Positions 150 through 16,296 of a DNA stretch of 64,000 nt are shown here, one piece after another; positions within the stretch are counted from its first letter, which is position 1; every line of letters begins with the position of its first letter. The position numbers and the translations under genes are program-made. This stretch comes from Methanobrevibacter gottschalkii DSM 11977 (lineage in GTDB: Archaea > Methanobacteriota > Methanobacteria > Methanobacteriales > Methanobacteriaceae). The notes under the pieces were generated by a model. That model was not told where the DNA came from. It saw only the letters and a program-made list of their open reading frames with translations, and did not search any database. The stretch is taken from NCBI RefSeq assembly GCF_003814835.1, contig NZ_RKRG01000004.1, positions 1 to 64,000 on the forward strand. Reading direction: 5' to 3'.

Positions 150-649
150 AACTATAAAATATTTAATGATTCAGTATACATTTTCAAATCATTATAATAG
201 ACTTAAATTAAGCAAAACTTCAAGATTTTCCTCATCTTTTTTTAATATATCATTAAGACAATTGAAAGCCAAATCATATTCTTCTAAATATAAATAGCAT
301 GAACTAATCTCGTTTAATATTATAATATTATGAGGATCAACATCCAATACTTTTTTAAAACAATCCATTGCTTGTTCATAATTTTCTAACTCCATGCATG
401 CCAATCCTTTTCTATAATAACAATGTACATCATCAGGATTATTTTTAAGAATTTCACTGAAACATCAAACGATTTCTCCTTTTCAAAAATATAAGCATAA
501 TAAAGCCCTTTAAATGACAAAGCCTCAGCATTATTCTTATCCAAAAACAATATTTTATCAACACATCTAATTGCTTTTTTATTTAAATAATTAGAGCCAT
601 ATGTAATTGATTTATCAATATAATAATTAACTATTCTATCCTTAAACAT
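150..649 (-). pseudogene. TPR protein, decayed copy (TPR-D)
   Basis: Fourth copy of the TPR gene family of this cluster. It starts at the ATG at 649 (protein begins MFKDRIVNYYIDKS) behind a GGGGAT ribosome binding site and follows the intact copy at 816-1721 closely. Near 465 one T of a TT pair is missing compared with the intact copy, which throws the frame off after EKEKSF; the original frame resumes as an open stretch at 404-192. Beyond 192 DNA similarity to the intact copy can be traced to about 150 (region encoding YDESLNIL) through small indels and stops, then fades. The product would have been a cytosolic helical-repeat protein. No C-terminal half is visible, so this is very likely a dead copy. 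Confidence 0.8.
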
Positions 650-815
650 GAAAAATCCCCTATCCATTAAATTAATCCTATTTATTAAATATTTCATTGA
701 AAATATTCTATAATCTTCATTAATTATAAAAAATATATGATTCAAATCAATGCCTTTAAAATAGTTAATAATAAAAATATCTGCAACATATCTATTTTTG
801 ATAATTAAAACAACA

Positions 816-1721
816 TTAACATTGTTTAATTAATTTTTTGACATCAGTTTTCATATTTTCAATCATTTTTTTTGGGAAATTTGGGTATTTTTCCAAATAT
901 TCATCATATACCTTTAATGCATCCTCATATTTCCCCATTACCTCCAATGACTCGCCATAATAACTATAATACGATTCAATTACACCCCAACCATCAAAAT
1001 ATGTTTTAGAAATCTCATCAAAACCCTGTAAAGAATGTTCAAAATCACCAACATAAGCTAATAAATTATATTTTATTGATTTTGAAACAATACAATCGGC
1101 ATTAATATTTAAAGCCAATTCAATATATTTTAATGCATCATCATACATTTCTTGATTTCTATAAACAATAGCCATTTGTAATAATGCATTATCTTCATTA
1201 GGATTTTTTTCAATTATTTTATTTAAAATATTTAATGATTCATCATACATTTCCAAAACATCATAATAAAGACTTAAACTAAGTAATAGTTCAGGATTTT
1301 CCATATCCTCTTTTAATACATCATTAATGGAATTAAAAGCTAAATCATATTCTTCCAAATACAAATAACATGAACTAATGTACCTTAAAACTATTGGATG
1401 ATGAGGATCAACATCCAATACTTTTTTAAAACAATTGATTGCTTGTTCATACTTTTCTAACTCCATGCATGCCAAGCCTTTTCTATAATAACAATGTACA
1501 TCATCAGGATTATTTTTAAGGATTTCACTGAAACATTCAAACGATTTCTCCTTTTCAAAAAGAAAAGCATAATAAAGCCCTTTAAATGACAAAGCCCTAG
1601 CATTATTCTTATCCAAAAACAATATTTTATCAACACAATCAATTGCTTTTTTATTTAAATGATTATGACCATATTCCATCGATTTATCAATATAATAATT
1701 AACTATCCTATCCTTAAACAT
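816..1721 (-). CDS. TPR-repeat protein (TPR-B)
   Basis: Protein of 301 residues made almost entirely of degenerate 34-residue tetratricopeptide repeats (for example NPDDVHCYYRKGLACMELEK, then NPNEDNALLQMAIVYRNQEM), with no signal peptide or membrane segment, so it is predicted to be cytosolic and to bind another protein. It is nearly identical to the gene at 3878-4777 over its whole length. It begins 10 bases after the stop of the small ORF at 1935-1732, which duplicates the C-terminal tail of the adhesin at 4789-9592. The ATG at 1721 is preceded by AGGTGG. The partner is unknown; repeated linkage to the adhesin tail suggests that this tail is the ligand. Confidence 0.85.
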   Translation of the reverse strand: MFKDRIVNYYIDKSMEYGHNHLNKKAIDCVDKILFLDKNNARALSFKGLYYAFLFEKEKSFECFSEILKNNPDDVHCYYRKGLACMELEKYEQAINCFKKVLDVDPHHPIVLRYISSCYLYLEEYDLAFNSINDVLKEDMENPELLLSLSLYYDVLEMYDESLNILNKIIEKNPNEDNALLQMAIVYRNQEMYDDALKYIELALNINADCIVSKSIKYNLLAYVGDFEHSLQGFDEISKTYFDGWGVIESYYSYYGESLEVMGKYEDALKVYDEYLEKYPNFPKKMIENMKTDVKKLIKQC

Positions 1722-1731
1722 GAAAATCCAC

Positions 1732-1935
1732 CTATCCCTTATCTTTTTCTAGTTCATATAAAAATAAATTTATTAATAAGTTTACAGTTTCAATTGATTC
1801 AAAATACAAAGACAAAGCAAATAATTCTTTAATATTAGATTTTACAAACTTTAATACTTCACCTTTACTTTTCGCATCTTTATAATTTTTATATAACTTT
1901 TTTAAATATTTACCCACTTCTTCAGCTGAACCCAT
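1732..1935 (-). CDS. Orphan C-terminal tail of adhesin-like protein
   Basis: This 67-residue ORF (starting MGSAEEVGKYLKKLYKNYKD) matches the last 67 residues of the large adhesin at 4789-8838 with only a few changes, and it is followed in the same way by a TPR gene. The similarity stops abruptly near 1930, just upstream of GSAEEVGKY, and the DNA beyond it (1936-2117) holds no adhesin body, only a 36-codon open stretch at 2090-1980. It is therefore a detached tail carried in a duplicated cassette. It is rich in Lys and Glu, looks alpha-helical and has no export signal. It could be translated from its ATG or be a silent fragment used for recombination. Confidence 0.65.
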   Translation of the reverse strand: MGSAEEVGKYLKKLYKNYKDAKSKGEVLKFVKSNIKELFALSLYFESIETVNLLINLFLYELEKDKG

Positions 1936-2117
1936 ATCATCTGCTCATTGGAACTACGAGTATTTAGTGAGAATAGTATTTAATGAATGGTATTTCCTAC
2001 TTGATAACCATTTGCATTTAATTTTATTCTTGTAGTTATTTCTGTCACAATATTCTTTCTTCTTAAATAAATTACACTAATCCTTAACATTATATGGTTG
2101 TCACATTATAAGAAACT

Positions 2118-3350
2118 TTATAACCTATTTAATCTTTCAGTTTTATCTTTTTTTAAATCTGAATCATTTTCAAAAATTTTAAAAACTTCATCGTATGCTA
2201 AAATTAATTCATCTACTTTATTTAGATTTTCAAGTGCGTCAAATTTTAAATTCCATGTCAATTCACAATCATTTTCAATTTTTAAAATTTCATTGGACAA
2301 ACATAAAACATCATCCCATTTTCTTAAATCACTTAAAATTAGCAATTTCAACTTTAAAAAATCAATACCCTCTGAACATGAATTTAATCCTTTATTAATG
2401 ACAACTAATGCATCATCAAACCTTTTTTTTATGGCGTAAAATTTCAGCATAAAGATTCAATGATAAACAATAGTTAGGATCTATTTTTAAAGCAGATTCA
2501 CAATATTTTAATGATTCATCAAATTTATTTTGATTATAAAGAGACAGGGATAAATTATACAAACACAATACATTATTTTTATCTAATTCTAAACATTTAT
2601 TAGAATAAAAAATTGCTCCATCATATTTTTCCATTGCATTAAGAATAACACTTTTTGTAAGATAAAGATAAGAATCTTTTGGATTAATTTTTAAAGCAAT
2701 ATCAATAGCAGACAACGCTTCATCGTATTTGCCCATTTCATAAAAAATCAATCCTTTGTACAACCAACTATCTTCTTGTCCATCATATCTATTTATACTT
2801 TCATCAATACAGTATAATGCATCATCAAATCTGTCGTTACGGGAAAAAAGTACTCCTATTAATAACCATATATAATATTCATCTGGAGATTGTGATTTAA
2901 CCATTGAAAATAACTTATCAAAATTACTTAAATCATCAGATTTATTTAAAACATAGCATTTAAAATAATAAGCCCATAAATTAGTTGAATCATCTTGCAA
3001 CACCTTATCAAAACATTTCATTGCAATTTTATCCTTTCCTTGAATAGATAATATATTTCCTTTTTGAACTAATAATTCATTATAATCATATCTTTCATCA
3101 AGTAGTAAATCATCAATTATAACCAATAATTCATCCAATGTTCCTAATTTATCATGAATCTCTATCAAATAGATAAAACAAGAATGACCTTGTAATTTTT
3201 CTTTAATAATTTATAAAAAATATCTGATGCATTATCATAATCTCCATTTTTTAAAAATCTCCTAGCATCACGAAATTTCCATTTATTATAAAAATTAAAT
3301 ATATTATTAAAAATTCTTATTTTACTACTCAAAATAAAACCTCCTGACAA
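2118..3350 (-). pseudogene. TPR-repeat protein, two compensating frameshifts (TPR-C)
   Basis: Three overlapping open stretches (3350-3165, 3168-2416, 2450-2118) form one TPR protein of about 410 residues. The first break lies near 3195, where adding one base (AATTACAA to AATTACAAA) joins KKNYK to GHSCFIYLIEIHDK. The second is in the A8 tract at 2430-2423, where losing one A joins LYAEILRHKK to RFDDALVVINKG. The two shifts cancel, so the first and last pieces are in the same frame. The repeats are TPR-like (YEMGKYDEALSAIDIALKIN) but the gene is clearly diverged from the TPR-A/B/D set. It is cytosolic by sequence. Either a broken gene, a phase-variable one, or sequencing error at the homopolymer. 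Confidence 0.75.
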
Positions 3351-3819
3351 TAACTTATTTTTGGAAGCTCACCATCTAAAATTCTAATATTCAACATATA
3401 TCCTATTTATTTTCCAATTGAAATACATTTAATCATTTTATGGATTACTTTTTGAGTATCCCTAGAAATTTACCATCAGGTAACTTTTAAAGCAACATCA
3501 ATTCCCTACATTAAAATTCCCAATTCTTAAAATTACTCCATTAAACATTACTATTCATCATTGATGTATATTCTATACTTTAAATGACTATAATCTTCTC
3601 CATTAAAAAAAATACAATAATAGATAATTCAAATAATTAGAAATATTAAATAGTTTCATCATGGATTTTTCATATTATATTTATTTAAAAATAATGGAAT
3701 TTTACTATTTTCCCCAAAAATTAAATAAAACATACTATCAAAAAATCATTTTTAAAGTCTTATTTGTTCTATAGTATTCAGCCATTTCATTTAAACCATA
3801 TGTTCCAAGTAAATCTGCA
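3351..3819. other. Intergenic stretch without a recognisable gene
   Basis: AT-rich spacer between TPR-C and the adhesin fossil. No ORF with protein-like character is convincing; a short minus-strand open run near 3827-3745 (reading IADLLGTYGLNEMAEYY) may be a gene remnant but I cannot assign it. Confidence 0.4.
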
Positions 3820-3876
3820 ATAATCATTACATAAAGAAACACAAACCGGATCAATATGGAACTAACTCACATCAAA
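3820..3876 (-). pseudogene. Fossil of adhesin C-terminal domain
   Basis: The DNA at 3820-3876 aligns almost base for base with 5896-5952 inside the large adhesin. On the minus strand it reads FDVS, stop, FHIDPVCVSLCND, against FNVTWSRISPVCVSLCND in the intact protein; the Trp codon has become TAG. It lies directly downstream of TPR-A, so a second adhesin C-terminal region once occupied this spot. Only about 19 codons survive. Confidence 0.7.
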
Positions 3877-3877
3877 C

Positions 3878-4777
3878 TTACTTAATCAACTTTAAGGCAT
3901 CTTCCTTCATATTTTCAATCATTTCTTTTGGGAAATTTGGGTATTTTTCCAAATATTCATCATATAAATTTAATGCATCCTCATATTTCCCCATTACCTC
4001 CAATGCACCTCCATAATAAATATAATACAATTCCATTACACCCCAACCATCAAAACATGTTTTAGAAATCTCATCAAAACCCTGTAAAGAATGTTCAAAA
4101 TCACCAACATGAGCTAATAAATTATATTTTATTGATTTTAAAACAATACTATCGACATTAATATTTAAAGCCAATTCAATATATTTTAATGCATCATCAT
4201 ACATTTCTTGATTTTCATAAACAGTAGCCATTTGTAATAATGCATCATTATCATTAGGATTTTTTTCTATTATTTTATTTAAAATATTTAATGATTCATC
4301 ATACATTTCCAAAGCATCATAATAAAGACTTAAACTAAGTAATAGTTCAGGATTTTCCCCATCATCTTTTAATACATCATTAATGGAATTAAAAACTAAA
4401 TCATATTCTCCCAAATACAAATAACATGAACTAATGTACCTTAAAACTATTGGATGATGGGGATCAACATCCAATACTTTTTTAAAACAATCCACTGCTT
4501 GTTCATATTCTATTAACTCCATACATGCCAATCCTTTTCTATAATAACAATGTACATCATCATGATTATTTTTAAGAATTTCACTGAAACATTCAAACGA
4601 TTTCTCCTTTTCAAAAAGAAAAGCATAATAAAGCCCTTTAAATGACAAAGCCCTAGCATTATTCTTATCAAAGAACAATATTTTATCAACACATCTAATT
4701 GCTTTTTTATTTAAATGATTATGACCATATTCCATCGATTTATCAATATAATAATTAACTATCCTATCCTTAAACAT
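3878..4777 (-). CDS. TPR-repeat protein (TPR-A), partner gene of the adhesin
   Basis: Protein of 299 residues, a chain of TPR motifs from about residue 15 to the C-terminus with no signal peptide or membrane helix. It begins 11 bases after the adhesin stop at 4789, with AGGTGG lying in the gap, so the two genes are probably co-transcribed and translationally coupled. Near-identical paralogue at 816-1721, decayed paralogue at 150-649. TPR proteins are scaffolds that bind peptides; since the neighbouring adhesin ends in a membrane segment and a charged, probably cytoplasmic tail, I infer that TPR-A may bind that tail. No enzymatic motif is visible. Confidence 0.85.
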   Translation of the reverse strand: MFKDRIVNYYIDKSMEYGHNHLNKKAIRCVDKILFFDKNNARALSFKGLYYAFLFEKEKSFECFSEILKNNHDDVHCYYRKGLACMELIEYEQAVDCFKKVLDVDPHHPIVLRYISSCYLYLGEYDLVFNSINDVLKDDGENPELLLSLSLYYDALEMYDESLNILNKIIEKNPNDNDALLQMATVYENQEMYDDALKYIELALNINVDSIVLKSIKYNLLAHVGDFEHSLQGFDEISKTCFDGWGVMELYYIYYGGALEVMGKYEDALNLYDEYLEKYPNFPKEMIENMKEDALKLIK

Positions 4778-4788
4778 GAAAAATCCAC

Positions 4789-7700
4789 CTATCCCTTATC
4801 TTTTTCTATTTCATATAAAAACAAATTTATTAATAAATTTACAGTTTCAATTGATTCAAAATACAAAGACAAAGCAAATAATTCTTTAATATTAGATTTT
4901 ACAAACTTTAATACTTCACCTTTACTTTTCGCATCTTTATAATTTTTATATAATTCTTTTAAATATTTACCAACTTCTTCAGCTGAACCAAGATTATCCA
5001 TATCCTTTGGACCTTTTCCACTAGGAATAGGTCCTATTTTTATTTTAAAATTTATATTATCCTTATTAACATTAGAATTATATCTTTTATACTTATTATT
5101 AAAATTTCTATTATTTTTAAGTTGTGAAATAATATAATCATCTGATGATTTACCATCTAATACTAATTTAGGAGGATTTATTATATTTGCAGGATAAGTA
5201 TTTTCATAAATTGGAATATCAGGATAATCCTTATAATATGGATTAAATAAGCTTGCAAAGTTCATCCATACTTCATTAACCTGTTCAGGGAATAAAAACA
5301 TGATAATTGGCAATGATATTAACATGATTGGAGCAATTGAAATTTCCCCAAACAATAATCCAATTTCAGATCCTTCAATTAAAGCTGATCCAATTCCACT
5401 CATTTCTAAACCAATGAATTCGACCTCCCCAATTAACGTTGCAGATATTACTCCAATACCAAAAATATTTTTTAAATCATTGAATTCTCTGCCCATATTA
5501 TTTAATAGATTATTTCCATATTTCCATGCATTTTCTGTTATGTTATCATGATAACATGGCATTGTCCCAAGTAAACCATAATAACTGAAATAGTCCCGAA
5601 CAATTCCAGTCTTCAAATCTAAAAACAACAAAGTATTACCGTCATTCTCACATTTAATAAATATATATCCGTTACTTGTAAAAATTTCCATTGTTTCATT
5701 ATTAAAATAACTTTCAATTAAACCAAGAGTAACACTACCTATTGTCGTATCATTCCAAATATTATTACCGACCAACTGCTCCACCAGACTGAAACTGAAA
5801 CTTGTTGCAAAATTAAACTTCCAAACATCACTAATATTTCCTATCGCTTCCCGACCCATTCCATGATCAGACTCCCCAGTAACATATAAACAATTATAAT
5901 CATTACACAAAGAAACACAAACAGGACTAATACGAGACCAAGTCACATTAAATTTAATTGCAGATTCATCAGCCACACGGTCATTTTCATAAATCACTAA
6001 CAAAGAAGTTAAAAAAGTACCATAAGCGGCTTTCATCAAACCTGGAGCATATAATTCTTTTTGATTTAACCAAAATTGCAAATCATCATTAGTTAAATTA
6101 TCTTTAACAATTGCAAAACTGCGCATACCTTCATAACCAATACTAATATTATTTTCATCTTCAATATCAGTGTAATAAATATTACTTATACGATGAGCAT
6201 AACTAGATGGAGGCTTTAAAAGTTTATGAACTCCATTATAATCAAAGTTAATATCTGGAGTCATATCACCATGAAAATCAATAGTCATATCAATAAAATC
6301 AATGAAAAAACCTTTATAATTTTTAACAAAATTTAAATCAGAGTCTGTTAAATCATAATATAATTTAATATAATTTAAAAATCTATTATAAACAGAATTA
6401 TAATCTCTAAAATCAATATTAGCTGCTTTTGCAAAACTGAAATAATAACCATTAGGTGCCCAAACACCTTCTTTCGTACTGGCAAAAACAGTATCCAGCA
6501 ACTTAATAGCTTCAAAAACATTTGTGGAATAATTATTTTTAAATTTTTGATAAAAAAGATTGTGGATATTAATTTCATCTAAGATTTCACCATTAACTAT
6601 TACATAAATTTTACCAGTAAATAATCCTGTTTCAGACCAGCAAAATGTAATCCAAGAAGCATTATTGCTGAATGGAATCTGATAAGTCTTATTTACAAAA
6701 TAATTATTTTCAAAATCCCATGCAGAAGAAAATAGCATTATATCAATTGTAACCTTTTTATTAAAAGAGTTTAGTATTTTTACATTGTCAAAAATAGACA
6801 TGACAGTGATATTTTCATGGTTTTTAAATAAATCATTTAATTCAAAATCAACAAAAGATTTACCCTCATGCAAATATGAAATATTGGATTTTTTAGCTCC
6901 ATCCCCATTAAATACTCCAATAAAAGATTTTAAATTATTTGGAATATAACCTTTATATGACAAATCATTTCCTATATTATTATAAGTTAAATCAACATAA
7001 AATTTAGCTCTTTCAATATTGTTATTTTCATTTATTTTATAAGAAGATGAAAATAAATGTGCAACCATCCAAGAGTTCATAATTACATTTCCAGTAGCAT
7101 TATAAATGTTAGCAAGAATAGAACGATTAATAGAAATTTTAGGAGTGTTTTCACCCCACCAATTATCATTAATTACATAATCACTGTTTGCTTCTGAGTA
7201 AAAATCATATTGAGAATTATCACATAATCTATTCAAGTAACATGAATCATTATACGATAAAAGAGAGGTATCTAAAACAAAACCACATAATATATTATCA
7301 TGAATATTATTAAAAGCATAAGTATTATTAACTGAGACTCTTAAAAATACTCCATGATTATTATTTTTAAATTCATTGTGAGTTACATGAGAATTAGATG
7401 AAACAACATACAATCCAGCATTAAAATTAGAAACATTGTTAGAATCAATACTTACATTTGAACAGATAACATACAATCCAATACCATTTAAATTGTTTTT
7501 ATTGGTTATTCTATTATTAACAATAGAAATATTATTTGAAGTAATATTTGTAACAACGATTCCACCAGCACCCGTATCAGAATTTAATGAAATATTATTA
7601 TTAAAAACCATTAGATTATCTGATTTTCTAATAGCAACACCAGACATGAAATTTAAAAATTTATCTGAATCAATAGAATTATAAGCAACCAAAGTATTTT

Positions 7701-8838
7701 TATCATCATCTATTTCTATAGATTTAACCACATTGATAAATTGATTATTAATTACAGAAACATTATCTGCATGATAAATAACAACACCATGCTCCGAATC
7801 TTTAATTTTAAATCCATAAATAACACTATTACTTCCACCACCAGTAATTCCAATAACTGGACGGGAAGGATCCCTACTTGTTAAAGTAGCATTAATCCCA
7901 ATCATAGTAACGAATTTATTAACAGTTAATGGTTCATTGTATAAACCTTCACTAATTTTAATTATATCACCATTATGGGTATTTGAATCATCAATTGCTG
8001 ATTGGATTGTTGTAAATCCTCTTCCTGAATTCAAATTACCTATTTTTTCAAAAATATAATTACAAGTTTTTGTTTCGCTTTTATGACCATTAAAATCAAT
8101 TGAATAAAATTTTAATAATGTTGTCCTTGAAATATTCAATAAATTTTCATACAATTTAAAATTGGATTCATCTAACGAATAATAAATTTTAGGATTGGCA
8201 TCAAGATTATCCCAACTGGACAAATTAACAATAATAGAAGAATCATATAAGTCTGAACCAAAATTACTCCAAACAACAGGACAATTATTGTCAATCAAAT
8301 AATGTTCATGGAAAATACTCCCACTACCATTACTATAATATAAATCATAGATCCCATTTGTTAAAATAAATGATACTGATTTATCAGATTGACTCCAACT
8401 ATCATTATTCAAACAATACTTAATCAATTTAGCATTATTGATATTTAATGATAAATTTAAATATGACTTATTGTAAAATCCCCCATCATAATTCACAGTT
8501 GGATTGAATGATATTACATTAACATTAATCTTTTTACTAATACTTGCATATGGACTTTTAGTAAATGAAACAATCACATTGTATAATCCCGGTTTTTCAT
8601 CAATTTTGATTTTGGCTCTACCCTTATTATCACTAACAACATTTATAATTTTATCATTAATTTTAAAAGTGATTGTTTGCCCATTTAGAAATTTATTATT
8701 TTTAGTGTCTTTTAAAGTAGCATATAAATAAGAATTATCTTCCCCATAATTACATGTTAAATCATTTACTGTTAAACTTGTAGGGATACTTTTAACTGTT
8801 ACTGTTATTGTTTTTTTTGCTTGTAACATAATTAGCAT
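4789..8838 (-). CDS. Adhesin-like protein, main part (beta-helix, novel domain, TM, tail)
   Basis: Open stretch of 1349 codons forming the downstream part of a surface protein whose N-terminus is at 8792-9592. After a third Ig-like domain (to about residue 110) and a Cys-containing region comes a NosD-like parallel beta-helix (about 280-600; GFTTIQSAIDDSNTHNGDII, then PbH1 repeats such as NNVSNFNAGLYVV). A long unassigned domain follows (about 750-1120, with VCVSLCNDYNC and GESDHGMGREA), then a hydrophobic region (about 1150-1210), then a charged tail of about 130 residues ending in EIEKDKG. The last 67 residues recur as an orphan ORF at 1732-1935. The ATG at 8838 is probably not a real start; see the A8 frameshift at 8811-8818. 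Expected to be cell-surface anchored. Confidence 0.75.
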   Translation of the reverse strand: MLIMLQAKKTITVTVKSIPTSLTVNDLTCNYGEDNSYLYATLKDTKNNKFLNGQTITFKINDKIINVVSDNKGRAKIKIDEKPGLYNVIVSFTKSPYASISKKINVNVISFNPTVNYDGGFYNKSYLNLSLNINNAKLIKYCLNNDSWSQSDKSVSFILTNGIYDLYYSNGSGSIFHEHYLIDNNCPVVWSNFGSDLYDSSIIVNLSSWDNLDANPKIYYSLDESNFKLYENLLNISRTTLLKFYSIDFNGHKSETKTCNYIFEKIGNLNSGRGFTTIQSAIDDSNTHNGDIIKISEGLYNEPLTVNKFVTMIGINATLTSRDPSRPVIGITGGGSNSVIYGFKIKDSEHGVVIYHADNVSVINNQFINVVKSIEIDDDKNTLVAYNSIDSDKFLNFMSGVAIRKSDNLMVFNNNISLNSDTGAGGIVVTNITSNNISIVNNRITNKNNLNGIGLYVICSNVSIDSNNVSNFNAGLYVVSSNSHVTHNEFKNNNHGVFLRVSVNNTYAFNNIHDNILCGFVLDTSLLSYNDSCYLNRLCDNSQYDFYSEANSDYVINDNWWGENTPKISINRSILANIYNATGNVIMNSWMVAHLFSSSYKINENNNIERAKFYVDLTYNNIGNDLSYKGYIPNNLKSFIGVFNGDGAKKSNISYLHEGKSFVDFELNDLFKNHENITVMSIFDNVKILNSFNKKVTIDIMLFSSAWDFENNYFVNKTYQIPFSNNASWITFCWSETGLFTGKIYVIVNGEILDEINIHNLFYQKFKNNYSTNVFEAIKLLDTVFASTKEGVWAPNGYYFSFAKAANIDFRDYNSVYNRFLNYIKLYYDLTDSDLNFVKNYKGFFIDFIDMTIDFHGDMTPDINFDYNGVHKLLKPPSSYAHRISNIYYTDIEDENNISIGYEGMRSFAIVKDNLTNDDLQFWLNQKELYAPGLMKAAYGTFLTSLLVIYENDRVADESAIKFNVTWSRISPVCVSLCNDYNCLYVTGESDHGMGREAIGNISDVWKFNFATSFSFSLVEQLVGNNIWNDTTIGSVTLGLIESYFNNETMEIFTSNGYIFIKCENDGNTLLFLDLKTGIVRDYFSYYGLLGTMPCYHDNITENAWKYGNNLLNNMGREFNDLKNIFGIGVISATLIGEVEFIGLEMSGIGSALIEGSEIGLLFGEISIAPIMLISLPIIMFLFPEQVNEVWMNFASLFNPYYKDYPDIPIYENTYPANIINPPKLVLDGKSSDDYIISQLKNNRNFNNKYKRYNSNVNKDNINFKIKIGPIPSGKGPKDMDNLGSAEEVGKYLKELYKNYKDAKSKGEVLKFVKSNIKELFALSLYFESIETVNLLINLFLYEIEKDKG

Positions 8839-9592
8839 TTGTAAATGAGATGGCTGTAGGGTATGTTTTTGGTTTTGCAGTAATTGTTAGACACGCAACT
8901 CCTTTAGAATTCGTTTTCTTAATATATTTTTTACCACTGAAATTAAAAACAACTGTTTTATTAACAATTGATTTGCCTTTTTTATTTTTTAGTGTTGCTT
9001 TTAATTTATTGTTTGTATCACCATATGTAAAAACAAGATTATTGGCTGTTAATGTTGTTGGCATTGCTTTTACTGTAACTTTTGCTGTTTTACTGCTGCT
9101 TTTATAACCACTTGCTTTGAAAGAAAATTTCACCGAATAGGTTCCAGGCCCTTTTTTAACATCCCAACTAACACAACCTTTGGAATCAGTTGTACGAGAG
9201 TAAGTTTTACCAGAATAAGTAACAGTGATCTTTTTTCCAGATAAAACTTTACCATTTGAATTTTTCAAATAAGCTTTAACACTTGTACCATCTTGAAAAT
9301 ATTTAGTTATATCTTTTGCAGTAATCGATGTTTTAACTGTAGATTTAACTTTTTTCACAACATTACCGGAATAAACATCTGTAAAGTTAATATCTGATGA
9401 ATTAACAACATTATTATCAATATAATAGTTATCTGATGAAACTTCAATAGTATCCGAGCACAATTCTCCTACTTGACAATCAACACTTAAAGTATCATTT
9501 TCAACTACATTATCTGAAACTGCACAAACACAGTCCAAACAAATAAAAAAACAAAAAGTCAACAATAAAACTGCTTTATAAAACTTCTTCAC
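8792..9592 (-). CDS. Adhesin-like protein, N-terminal part (signal peptide, Ig-like domains)
   Basis: A 266-codon stretch starting MKKFYKAVLLLTFCFFICLD, a clear Sec signal peptide (about residues 1-24), followed by an acidic linker and two bacterial-Ig-like domains (about 90-170 and 175-260; SGKKITVTYSGKTYSRTTDS) of the kind found repeatedly in Methanobrevibacter surface proteins. The frame ends in a spurious tail (KKNNNSNS) just after an A8 run at 8818-8811. Removing one A gives SKKTITVTVKS and continues without a break into the 4789-8838 stretch, for a protein of about 1600 residues. As it stands the product is a secreted two-domain fragment without an anchor. Confidence 0.75.
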   Translation of the reverse strand: MKKFYKAVLLLTFCFFICLDCVCAVSDNVVENDTLSVDCQVGELCSDTIEVSSDNYYIDNNVVNSSDINFTDVYSGNVVKKVKSTVKTSITAKDITKYFQDGTSVKAYLKNSNGKVLSGKKITVTYSGKTYSRTTDSKGCVSWDVKKGPGTYSVKFSFKASGYKSSSKTAKVTVKAMPTTLTANNLVFTYGDTNNKLKATLKNKKGKSIVNKTVVFNFSGKKYIKKTNSKGVACLTITAKPKTYPTAISFTNANYVTSKKNNNSNS

Positions 9593-12048: not shown

Positions 12049-15000
12049 TTACCTTTTTCTAAAAATATCACCTCCTCCAAAAATCATAGAAACAATTACA
12101 GAAATAGATAGTAATTCTATGAAATTTGCAGTAGAATGTTTTTCAAGACAATAAACTGGCTGTTTGATATTTTCAGCTTTAACAACATTACTTTTAGTAA
12201 AATTATCAGTTAAATCATTTATAATTTTATCTGAAGTATTAGCAATAATTTTAACTAAAGCCGAATCATGATTATTATTCAAATCATTATCAAAAGTATC
12301 ACTTACAACAGAAGCAGTATTTTTAAAGATTCCTTCAGACAACGCTTCAAATTCCATGCGTAATTTTTCCTCACCACCAGCTGCAAGTTTATCTATTGAC
12401 CAAACATTACTGTAAGCATTAAATTCACCAGCTGACATCTTAAATGATTTCAGATGTAAAGATTTAGGGAATTCTTCACTAACTTTAACATTTACCGCAT
12501 CATCAGGACCATTGTTATTTACATTAATATTGTAAGTAAGTATTTGTCCAATTTCATATGCATGTTTAGAAACTGTTTTTGTAATTGACAAATCAGCTGC
12601 AGGCCCAACATGAACAGTATCCTCAGCTTCATTGTTTGACAAATCGGGATCGTCTTCACTACAATATACAGCGGCTACATTAGTAATATCTCCTGTTTTA
12701 ATGATTCTTGTAACTATATCTAATGTTTTTGAATTACCAACACCTAAATCACCAACATACCAAATACCCTCTTCATAATCACCATTTGCACTAATAAATT
12801 CTAAAGAATCAGGTAAAATATCTTCAACAACAACATCAGTTGCATCATTAAAACCATTATTTGAAACTATCAGTGTCCATTTTATCAAATCTTTATAATT
12901 AGCATTTGAAACATTGACAAATTTTTCAATTGAAAGATCTGAGACTGGCAATACATTAATTGACTCATTATAATGATTATCTGACAGGTTAATGTCAAAT
13001 TCATTTGCTATTGCAGACACATCATTTACAATAATGCCCAATTGCCCGACATGACAACTAATATTTAGATATTCACTATCACCTGCATTTAGATAATCTA
13101 AGAACCAAACACCGTTTTGGTAAACACCACAAGTTGAAACATAGTCTTTAAATATTAAACCTTCTGGCAATTCATCAGTTACTCTAATATTAGTTGCCCT
13201 ATCCGGACCTTTGTTTGTAACTTCAATAATCCAAGTTATAATATCTCCAAAGTAAGGATTTTTACTATCAACTTGTTTTATGACTGAAATGTCCGATGCA
13301 GGTGGAACAATAATAGATTCATTGTCTAGATTATTGTCCAGATTAGGATCATATTCTATTCCTGAGATTTTAGCAATATTTGTAATATTTCCTGTTCTGT
13401 TGACTTTACATATTAACTCCAAAGTTTCAGTTTTTCCTTTTTCAAGACAACACACAACCCATACGCCATCATCGTAAAATCCTTTACTTGCCGTGTAGTT
13501 AAGAAGCATTAATCCTTTAGGAAGAATATCCTGAACTGTAACCCCATTAACTTTGTTGGGACCATTATTATATGCAGTGAGAGTCCATTTAACTATTTCA
13601 CCATAATTAGCATCACTTACATTAACTGTTTTTAAAATAGACAAATCTCCTGATTTAATAACAAATATAGTTTTATTAGCTACATTATTTGATAAATCAA
13701 TATCATGTTCACGAGATGTCACAGAAACATTATTTGTAATATTTCCAGTTTGATTAACTTGTGAGACAATATTAAGTTCAATTGTTTTGCCTTTGTTTAA
13801 AGTTCCAATATTCCAAATTCCAGTTTTCGGATTATATTTTCCAAGAGAGTCATCTTCAATCCAAATTAATGAATCTGAAAAAATATCTGTTACTTTTACA
13901 TCATGGGCAACATCAGGACCGGAATTAGAAACTGTTAATGTCCAGATAACCGAATCACCATAGTTTGGAGTGGTGATATTGACCTTCTTAATTATTGCCA
14001 AATCAACAGTAGGAGGTACGTTGATTTCTTTTTCATCATGATTATTGTCTAAATTAATATCATATTCATTTCCAGTTACATTAGCTTTGTTTACAATTTT
14101 TCCAGTAGCATTAACTTTAGTCATTATATTTAAAACTATAGTTTCACCAACTTTTAAAGATCCTATTGTTAAAACACCAGTTTTTGGATTATATGCTCCA
14201 TTACTGTCATCATTTACCCAAATTAATCCTTCAGGAAGTACATCATATACTACAACACCGGTTGAATCATTTGGACCATTGTTTGTAATATTCAATGTCC
14301 AGATGACTGTGTCTTTATAAGCAATTGAGTTTCCATTACTTGATTTTAAGATTTTATTATCAGTTTTTGGAAGAACATTGAATACGGTTGTATTGGCAAT
14401 TGCTTTGTAGTAATTATCTTCAAAATGTTTTGCGGTAACATAATACTTTCCAGGCTTTAAATTATCCAGCTTACCAGATACTGCACCTAGATAGTTAGTG
14501 TTTAAAGAGTTATTGTATACAATAGTTCCATCTTCATGTCTTACCATCATCAATACCCTCACATTATATTCACGGTCATCCTGATATAACTTACCGCTGG
14601 TAGTTGCTCCTAAAACTGGGTGTTCCCCATCAATTTCAATTTTATTATTGCTGGCTGCATTATAAATTGCATTTGATACTTTTAAATTATCAAAATCTGC
14701 AATGTTATTCCCTCCATAAATTACTGATTTGATGTTTTCTGACTCCCCATAATAGATATCATGAGCAAAAATCGGTAACCTGTAAACCCAAGCCTGATTT
14801 TGATATAATGTATTATTTACCAGTTTAAATTCAAGACCATTTCTATCAAAGTAAATTGCACTTCCATTTCTTGCAGTATTTAGTTTAAACTCATTATTCT
14901 GAGCAAGCACTTTTGTACTGTTTACATAAATAGCTCCACCTAATCCATCATTTAATTTTTTAACATCAGGTATTGCTTCATTTGATATGAATTTTGAATT

Positions 15001-16296
15001 CTTAACTGTAGTGTCTTTACCTTTGATAAATACAGCACCACCATCAATATTTGCAATATTTCTGTTAAATTTAGAATTTATGATTTTAACATTTGTTGCA
15101 TTGATATTAACAGCACCACCATACTCAGATGCATAATTATCATCAAATGTGGATTCTTCAATTTTTATATTTAACCCATCCAATTTAACCGCACCACCTA
15201 AAGGAGCTTTATTTCCTTTAAAAATACTGTTTGTAATATTTAAATTCATGAAATTCAGGTAATTCATCATAATAGCTACAGCACCACCATATTTAGTGGC
15301 GGTATTATTAATCAGAGTACAATTATTTAAATTGCCAGATGCATGATATGTCAAAGCAGCACCCCAATCCGCACTATTATTAATAAAAATACAGTTATAA
15401 TAGGAAGAACCATTTCTAACACATCCTGCTCCTGCATGACCTAAGCCAGTAGAGGATATAGCTTTATTATTAATAAATCTGCAATTTCTAACATTACCAT
15501 AAGACGGTTCCGTATCCAATCCTATCTGAATAGCACCGCCATAACATTCGCCATATCCTTTAACGTAATTTGAACTAAAAGCACAATTCTCAATTAAAAA
15601 ATCATGTCCGAATATTCCTAAAGCTCCAGCGGCAATTCCTGCACCATTATTTGTGAAATTACAATTTTTAATTAACATACCTTGTGTAGCTATTGCCCTA
15701 TATGGAGTATGTATTGCTCCCGAACTTAAATTTGCATAATTATTTTCAAAAACACACTTGTCAAATGCAATTGATTTAGCTGAAATTACAATAGCACCGC
15801 CTTTACTATCAGAATATCCATTTACAAATCTCAGATTCGATAATTTAGATTGTGTTGCTCCTGTAAATATTTTTAAAATTGTTGTTGAATTTTTACCATC
15901 TAAAATTGCTTGGGATGGTGAAGTGATTGTTAATTTCTTTGACATAGAAATGGTATCATCACCTTTTGAAACAAATTTACCGCTTAATTTTATTGTATCT
16001 CCTGCACTTGATTTATCAATAGCATTTTGAATATCCCTAAAAGTACCTCCGTTTACTGAATAAGTTTTTGCTTTTAATGCGGGATTTTGATTAGTATCCG
16101 ACATTGATTTATTTTTCTGAGAATTTTCTAGTTTATCTTCAACATTTACACCAGACCCCAATTTATCACTCTCGTTTAAATCTGCAGCATATGAATGCTC
16201 AATGCTAACTCCAAGAGAAGTAAAGATTAGACAAACAAAGATTAATGAAATGAGGAAAGGTTTGCCAATAACTATCTTTTGAATTTTGTTTAACAT
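12049..16296 (-). CDS. Adhesin-like protein with beta-helix and six DUF11 repeats
   Basis: Intact protein of 1415 residues. An N-terminal signal or anchor segment (about 10-38, KPFLISLIFVCLIFTSLG) is followed by a parallel beta-helix of PbH1 repeats (about 75-510; repeated NNCxFxxNxAxxxGGA motifs such as SAGAIHTPYRA-like coils), one Ig-like unit (about 560-650), and six DUF11 repeats (about 655-1345), each with the signature W-T-L-x-V-x-N-x-GP and D-x-LP-x-GL and spaced about 118 residues. The C-terminus is a hydrophobic helix ending GGGDIFRKR, a likely membrane anchor with a basic stop. DUF11 repeats form extended stalks, so the beta-helix head is probably held away from the pseudomurein wall. 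Function as adhesin is inferred from architecture. It is divergent from the pseudomurein-binding gene at 16759. Confidence 0.88.
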   Translation of the reverse strand: MLNKIQKIVIGKPFLISLIFVCLIFTSLGVSIEHSYAADLNESDKLGSGVNVEDKLENSQKNKSMSDTNQNPALKAKTYSVNGGTFRDIQNAIDKSSAGDTIKLSGKFVSKGDDTISMSKKLTITSPSQAILDGKNSTTILKIFTGATQSKLSNLRFVNGYSDSKGGAIVISAKSIAFDKCVFENNYANLSSGAIHTPYRAIATQGMLIKNCNFTNNGAGIAAGALGIFGHDFLIENCAFSSNYVKGYGECYGGAIQIGLDTEPSYGNVRNCRFINNKAISSTGLGHAGAGCVRNGSSYYNCIFINNSADWGAALTYHASGNLNNCTLINNTATKYGGAVAIMMNYLNFMNLNITNSIFKGNKAPLGGAVKLDGLNIKIEESTFDDNYASEYGGAVNINATNVKIINSKFNRNIANIDGGAVFIKGKDTTVKNSKFISNEAIPDVKKLNDGLGGAIYVNSTKVLAQNNEFKLNTARNGSAIYFDRNGLEFKLVNNTLYQNQAWVYRLPIFAHDIYYGESENIKSVIYGGNNIADFDNLKVSNAIYNAASNNKIEIDGEHPVLGATTSGKLYQDDREYNVRVLMMVRHEDGTIVYNNSLNTNYLGAVSGKLDNLKPGKYYVTAKHFEDNYYKAIANTTVFNVLPKTDNKILKSSNGNSIAYKDTVIWTLNITNNGPNDSTGVVVYDVLPEGLIWVNDDSNGAYNPKTGVLTIGSLKVGETIVLNIMTKVNATGKIVNKANVTGNEYDINLDNNHDEKEINVPPTVDLAIIKKVNITTPNYGDSVIWTLTVSNSGPDVAHDVKVTDIFSDSLIWIEDDSLGKYNPKTGIWNIGTLNKGKTIELNIVSQVNQTGNITNNVSVTSREHDIDLSNNVANKTIFVIKSGDLSILKTVNVSDANYGEIVKWTLTAYNNGPNKVNGVTVQDILPKGLMLLNYTASKGFYDDGVWVVCCLEKGKTETLELICKVNRTGNITNIAKISGIEYDPNLDNNLDNESIIVPPASDISVIKQVDSKNPYFGDIITWIIEVTNKGPDRATNIRVTDELPEGLIFKDYVSTCGVYQNGVWFLDYLNAGDSEYLNISCHVGQLGIIVNDVSAIANEFDINLSDNHYNESINVLPVSDLSIEKFVNVSNANYKDLIKWTLIVSNNGFNDATDVVVEDILPDSLEFISANGDYEEGIWYVGDLGVGNSKTLDIVTRIIKTGDITNVAAVYCSEDDPDLSNNEAEDTVHVGPAADLSITKTVSKHAYEIGQILTYNINVNNNGPDDAVNVKVSEEFPKSLHLKSFKMSAGEFNAYSNVWSIDKLAAGGEEKLRMEFEALSEGIFKNTASVVSDTFDNDLNNNHDSALVKIIANTSDKIINDLTDNFTKSNVVKAENIKQPVYCLEKHSTANFIELLSISVIVSMIFGGGDIFRKR

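Follow-up and report, generated by a model that had tools for sequence, protein, structure and literature searches.

Predicted contact-type toxin/immunity loci in archaea are reportedly described as polymorphic toxin systems by Makarova et al. (mBio, 2019), and papers that refer to them cite mostly DNase/RNase toxins. Membrane-acting toxins of the LXG/TelE type carry an LXG domain, are delivered by a T7SS and are paired with membrane-protein immunity. Methanobacteriales methanogens dominate animal guts and many digesters, and to our knowledge it is not known how their strains exclude one another. Our search of the literature on Methanobacteriales found no system such as the one described below, for which an entry in Makarova et al. 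is possible. In bacteria, CDI and Rhs loci carry orphan cdiA-CT/cdiI or rhs-CT/rhsI modules in which the junction is retained (PMC3150448), while in archaea classical polymorphic toxin systems have been described as rare (PMC3482391). In the VARTIG modules of Thermococcales, a surface protein whose variable C-terminus recombines is followed by variable membrane-protein genes; the authors liken the modules to polymorphic toxins and, having sought counterparts in other archaea, reported none that was closely similar (PMC8416519). A paper dealing with Methanobrevibacter adhesin-like proteins makes no mention of toxins or TPR partners (PMC11532034).

Here, we analysed a stretch of 64,000 nucleotides from Methanobrevibacter gottschalkii DSM 11977 (the window), which carries an adhesin gene and several genes for TPR proteins. 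Judging from its sequence and that of its relatives, the locus is probably the form that a polymorphic tail/partner system takes in this strain, in which the tail is most likely an effector and the downstream gene its immunity.

Adhesin and duplicated cassettes of the window

A sequence-only reading of the window had placed the adhesin in one ORF (4789-9592), followed after 11 bases by the gene TPR-A. The spacing is as described, but the single ORF is not, as a frameshift in an A8 homopolymer (8811..8818, (-)) splits the adhesin at a site where intact relatives have one frame. Because of this run, the two ORFs (9592-8792 and 8838-4789) share a short overlap but are read in different frames. 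The N-terminal ORF (8792..9592, (-), 266 aa) has a signal-peptide-like start and Big/Ig-like repeats, with the frameshift at its end; the profile scan gave Big_1 at 8e-8 (just below the cut-off) and MG4 above the cut-off. The main ORF (4789..8838, (-), 1349 aa) comprises an Ig-like and beta-helix-like stalk, including a NosD-like beta-helix match of 3e-8 that lies below the cut-off, a conserved module and a variable tail. The 222-aa module (5506..6171, (-)) was delimited by an alignment of relatives and lies just N-terminal of a junction that comparison with relatives places at about 5505. Here, similarity to sister adhesins falls off, and the tail of about 238 aa (type T1; 4789..5505, (-)) begins, showing a hydrophobic helical part and then a C-terminal 67-aa subdomain. 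Each full-length tail contains between one and three hydrophobic stretches. In an AF2 model of module and tail, the module folds well (pLDDT up to 93), and the tail is helical at low confidence (mostly pLDDT below 50). A Foldseek search of this model against the PDB revealed no match below E 0.001, and a PDB profile search with the module yielded nothing convincing.

The adhesin's final 67 codons and the TPR gene had been noticed to recur together, near-identical and without the adhesin body, which alignment bore out: 816-1935(-) and 3882-4989(-) share 94% DNA identity over 1.1 kb and represent a duplicated cassette of tail and TPR gene. Copy A, defined by its ORF and the copy comparison, consists of the tail end of the adhesin (4792..4992, (-), 67 aa) and TPR-A, the partner of the main tail (3878..4777, (-), 299 aa; ORF and profile scan). 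Copy B consists of an orphan tail end of 67 aa, recognized by its DNA match to copy A and lacking an adhesin body (1732..1935, (-)), and its partner TPR-B, an ORF similar to TPR-A (816..1721, (-), 301 aa). By direct counting, 64 of the 67 tail residues are identical and 3 differ, while TPR-A and TPR-B show 89% amino acid identity, with 33 of 299 residues differing. The dN/dS of the two TPR copies is 0.63, compared with 0.11-0.17 for closely related adhesin bodies; mapped on TPR helix positions, the differences revealed no clear bias. From tail stop to TPR start there are 11 bases in copy A and 10 in copy B. The orphan tail of copy B has no evident ribosome site, and the likely ribosome site of the TPR gene sits within the end of the tail. 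The 67-codon stretch is thus duplicated as claimed, but it is not the whole variable part, being merely the end of a tail of about 238 aa.

Two further remnants in the same direction were likewise correctly recognized, namely a third, decayed TPR copy (about 150..669, (-); 88% DNA identity over 155-669, with frameshifts and stops) and an adhesin fossil (3820..3883, (-); 81% over 64 bp, E 3e-12), which matches the adhesin around PVCVSLCNDY and derives from within the conserved module. Overlooked at that stage was TPR-C (2118..3350, (-)), a different, orphan TPR gene between the cassettes, decayed by frameshifts and spread over three frames. It belongs to another TPR subfamily, with 38-42% identity to TPR genes that stand directly after another tail type in genome G014 and 42% amino acid identity to L040:8960-10117. 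As the window begins at a contig end, the array may extend beyond it.

Exchange of tail and partner at a fixed junction

Methanobacteriales adhesins have a body conserved to a fixed junction, after which tails of about 200-280 aa and of unrelated types follow. The junction reads GTMPCYHDNITENAW in Methanobrevibacter and GAYCYxxQQTEWA in others, giving the general form C-[YF]...T-[DE]; everything beyond is unrelated or strongly diverged. Searched with the C-terminal part of the adhesin, relatives were 60-78% identical, the similarity ending at varying points. The adhesins of G018 and G089:C14 share 93.7% DNA identity over 4172 bp, followed by tails with 36.0% and partners with 36.6% amino acid identity, and homology picks up again downstream of the partner region. 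Between G047 and G038, belonging to other families of the order, the bodies are 95.9% identical and the tails unrelated (22.6%), with relatives of each strain's main tail found among the orphan cassettes of the other strain. The window and G018 have bodies with 78% identity, and tails and partners of unrelated class; in G084 and the second adhesin of G089, the bodies are 96.7% and the tails 100% identical. These comparisons show that tail and downstream gene behave as one unit exchanged between strains, and they reveal a conserved secreted body with an exchangeable C-terminal domain, as in polymorphic toxins.

At least two partner classes exist: cytosolic TPR proteins for some tails and polytopic membrane proteins for others, the main T2 type of the latter having about four to six hydrophobic segments and the T3 type two. 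Tails were clustered by sequence alone on their C-terminal 150 aa, as the shared junction piece otherwise merges types, and the sampling of loci was partly steered by TPR or membrane-partner matches. Partner class was pure in all 13 tail clusters, tail and partner type agreeing in 36/36 pairs (TPR 21, membrane protein 15; p 8.7e-8 by exact relabelling, uncorrected for shared ancestry). Of 46 ORFs containing the module end, 23 had a TPR gene next after module and tail and 17 a gene for a membrane protein, against 6/169 and 35/169 in the control; the remaining six were broken genes, fragments or ORFs lying farther from the following one. Each tail type thus has its specific partner gene directly downstream, again as in polymorphic toxin systems.

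The proposal of the sequence-only reading that tail and partner form a matched pair is therefore strongly supported by the relatives. Taking the TPR protein as partner holds for TPR-class tails, which in relatives are directly followed by a TPR gene with a single exception, a broken gene in G009; it does not hold as the sole partner class, since other tails pair with membrane proteins. Tail and TPR protein had also been expected to diverge together. Over 22 pairs, their distances (measured on the tail ends) were indeed correlated (rho 0.35, p 0.0006), most highly in the subset around the window's tail type T1 (rho 0.67, n=7), but without T1 tails the correlation was not significant (rho 0.11, p 0.22). 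Co-folding of a stop-read-through chain of tail and TPR protein from record L134, on an alignment of four rows only, gave values above 90 for the TPR part and of about 50 or below for the tail (pTM 0.52).

Matched pairs of this kind also suit the strongest rival explanation, a membrane-anchored adhesin whose cytosolic recognition or signalling tail docks on the cell's own TPR or membrane protein, its variation providing adhesion specific to the strain, or recognition of kin, with no killing involved. The hydrophobic stretches of the tails could be anchors, some of the adhesin-like proteins of Methanobrevibacter are reported to have C-terminal anchors (PMC11532034), and the pairs are co-adapted, class matching and swaps fitting co-adapted receptor tails equally well. 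What bears on this rival is the occurrence of partners and tails on their own.

Orphan cassettes and partner-only genomes

The TPR family, with 40-51% identity to TPR-A, is present in 8 of 67 genomes of the genus, including the window's own. In G016, a 43%-identical tail without an adhesin body has a TPR homologue directly after it, and these are followed by an orphan tail fragment with a partner of another type. Orphan cassettes of tail and partner were found in at least six genomes and recur independently in other genera. They occur in the window, in G016 and in records L134, L135/L176, L137 and L138; long arrays of them are carried by G047, G048 and G043, and many retain the junction motif and a short remnant of the body. 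Partners also stand alone, as in an island of four tandem TPR genes in G026, and G090 retains most of the partner island of G089 (96-99% DNA identity) without any adhesin. Orphan cassettes of the tail/immunity type and partner-only loci, both known from polymorphic toxins, are accordingly part of the picture. A T1 or T2 partner without a polymorphic adhesin was observed in 11 of 23 partner-bearing genomes of the genus, while an adhesin without such a partner was observed in 2 of 14 adhesin-bearing ones, in both of which the adhesin is broken. Many partners without adhesin and few adhesins without partner are what a harmful tail and a protective partner should give rise to, and are not expected where a receptor tail has a binder.

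The anchored-adhesin reading leaves unexplained why partner genes are retained in genomes without any adhesin, why they form tandem arrays, and why orphan tails exist without export signal or stalk; we regard it as unlikely. The partner could otherwise be a chaperone or export/assembly factor that keeps the hydrophobic tail in solution until it is secreted. Hydrophobic translocators are served in this way by TPR chaperones of the SycD/LcrH type, and the TPR fold, the hydrophobic tails and a generic match of TPR-B to LcrH_SycD, which is weak and lies below the cut-off, are in line with such a role; yet other tails use unrelated polytopic membrane proteins and partners persist without clients, which makes this role very improbable. 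Similarly slim are the chances of simple local duplication and decay, or of a silent-cassette reservoir for surface antigen variation with a hitch-hiking partner and 67 codons that perhaps just carry the TPR ribosome site. The copies in the window are recent, several of them broken, and the tail end holds what is probably the ribosome site of the TPR gene, but the same cassette logic is seen in distant genera with unrelated tails and partners, and partner class always tracks tail class. Between the two readings originally offered, an effector with a protective partner thus appears favoured over a signalling or assembly tail with its binder, because of the swaps, the orphan cassettes and the partner-only genomes.

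The conserved module was matched in 101 of 152 genomes of the phylum. When 84,980 species, each represented by a single genome, were scanned with strict patterns that miss distant relatives, all relatives found belonged to Methanobacteriaceae save two contigs, possibly mis-binned, from metagenome bins that bear the labels Atribacteria and Bacteroidota; a scan of viral contigs for the module revealed nothing. We do not claim T2 loci as provirus cargo, their neighbouring genes having no PHROG match. Many genomes of the genus also carry a related paralogue of about 1000 aa beside a gene for an ArsA-like ATPase, with fixed neighbours, which was left out of the polymorphic set as it is not visibly polymorphic.

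A putative contact system compared with known ones

For the preferred reading, that of effector and immunity, we infer toxicity and delivery of the tail, protection by its partner and the membrane as target. After export by Sec, the long-stalked surface protein would present the exchangeable tail at its C-terminal end, and on contact this tail would act on the membrane of a related cell nearby, or enter the cell through it. The gene directly downstream would provide an immunity protein specific to the tail, namely a cytosolic TPR protein in the case of T1-type tails and a polytopic membrane protein in that of the others. Orphan cassettes and partner-only arrays would then be a stock from which tails are switched at the conserved junction, as well as collected immunities against neighbours. 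Compared with Pfam, NCBIfam, PADLOC, PHROGs and the PDB, tail, module and membrane partner gave no convincing match to a toxin, immunity or other family, and the tail may carry a new toxin domain. No delivery machinery or transporter was identified in the adhesin scans and among the neighbouring ORFs, a part of which was scanned.

Whether the whole order practises such antagonism is, on present genomic evidence, an evenly balanced proposition: a so far undescribed Methanobacteriales contact system in which adhesins would deliver membrane-inserting helical tails, TPR and polytopic proteins of new families would confer specific immunity, and orphan arrays would be immunity collections. Should these pairs prove to be toxin and immunity, Methanobrevibacter's large repertoires of adhesin-like proteins would include weapons and not anchors alone, archaea would possess new families of membrane-acting effectors and immunities, and strain exclusion and methane control would become open to direct test.

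Among known systems, the LXG/TelE type, taken as a lead only, is similar in combining a hydrophobic toxin with a polytopic immunity protein, T7SS delivery and the LXG domain being features of its own. The loci of Makarova et al. reportedly resemble ours as predicted contact-type toxin/immunity loci in archaea and differ in that mostly DNase/RNase toxins are cited for them. With CDI and Rhs loci, our locus shares a long conserved surface protein, an abrupt change at a conserved junction and a tail-specific downstream gene, as well as orphan tail/partner modules that keep the junction and tail types that are main or orphan across strains (PMC3150448). Unlike in those loci, neither the methanogen tails nor their membrane partners show a match to a known family, and the cells are archaeal with another wall type. 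Pfam and NCBIfam scans of the adhesin gave Ig-like and beta-helix matches only, with no TPS secretion domain; no CdiB-like gene was noticed among the neighbouring ORFs scanned, and the junction carries C-[YF]...T-[DE] in place of VENN. Lacking a two-partner secretion domain and VENN, the locus is not CDI. As in VARTIG, an archaeal surface protein with a variable C-terminus is followed by variable membrane-protein genes, but the variable part of VARTIG is an Ig domain of arCOG07710, whereas the methanogen tails, for which profile scans gave no Ig match, are hydrophobic, predicted all-helical at low confidence and accompanied by TPR or polytopic partners. The locus is neither CDI nor VARTIG; by analogy, it would work like a bacterial polymorphic toxin system, its architecture being the one known from polymorphic toxin/immunity loci, here carried by a new chassis.

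Interruption of the adhesin gene and other adhesins of the same genome

The adhesin gene of the window (4789-9592, minus strand) is interrupted at a run of eight adenines (8811-8818), a split that could reflect phase variation, gene decay or a sequencing error; family adhesins are also broken in three further genomes (G088, G033 and G004). A second family adhesin of the window's own genome (L018, G000:C1:636092-641235) carries a different tail type and is followed by two tandem membrane proteins of about 110 aa and then by transposase-like ORFs. Another adhesin of the window, with 1415 aa and repeated domains (12049-16296), lies, as far as seen, outside the tail/partner system.

Genes adjoining the partner loci

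An AAA ATPase gene was repeatedly found beside partner islands or solo partners, once with a PF01637 assignment (L039:12593-13780) and elsewhere recognized by eye (L041:2200-3387, L116:6712-7902, L120:6130-7317 and L121:6088-7275). The orphan array of genome G016 is adjoined by a recombinase of the phage-integrase family (L019:3525-4346). Three membrane-partner loci (L074, L075 and L141) all end beside the same virus-like gene pair, which appeared portal-like by eye and gave no PHROG match. The system is also present on two contigs from bins labelled Atribacteria and Bacteroidota (L133 and L138), which look like mis-binned methanogen DNA.

A module-bearing paralogue beside an ArsA/Get3-like gene

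In many genomes of the genus, a paralogue of about 1000 aa containing the conserved module adjoins an ArsA/Get3-like ATPase gene (G000:C1:302514, L058-L072 and L116-L119) and is followed by small membrane proteins. Judged by eye, the X-type tails of loci L172-L175 are similar to the tail end of this paralogue.
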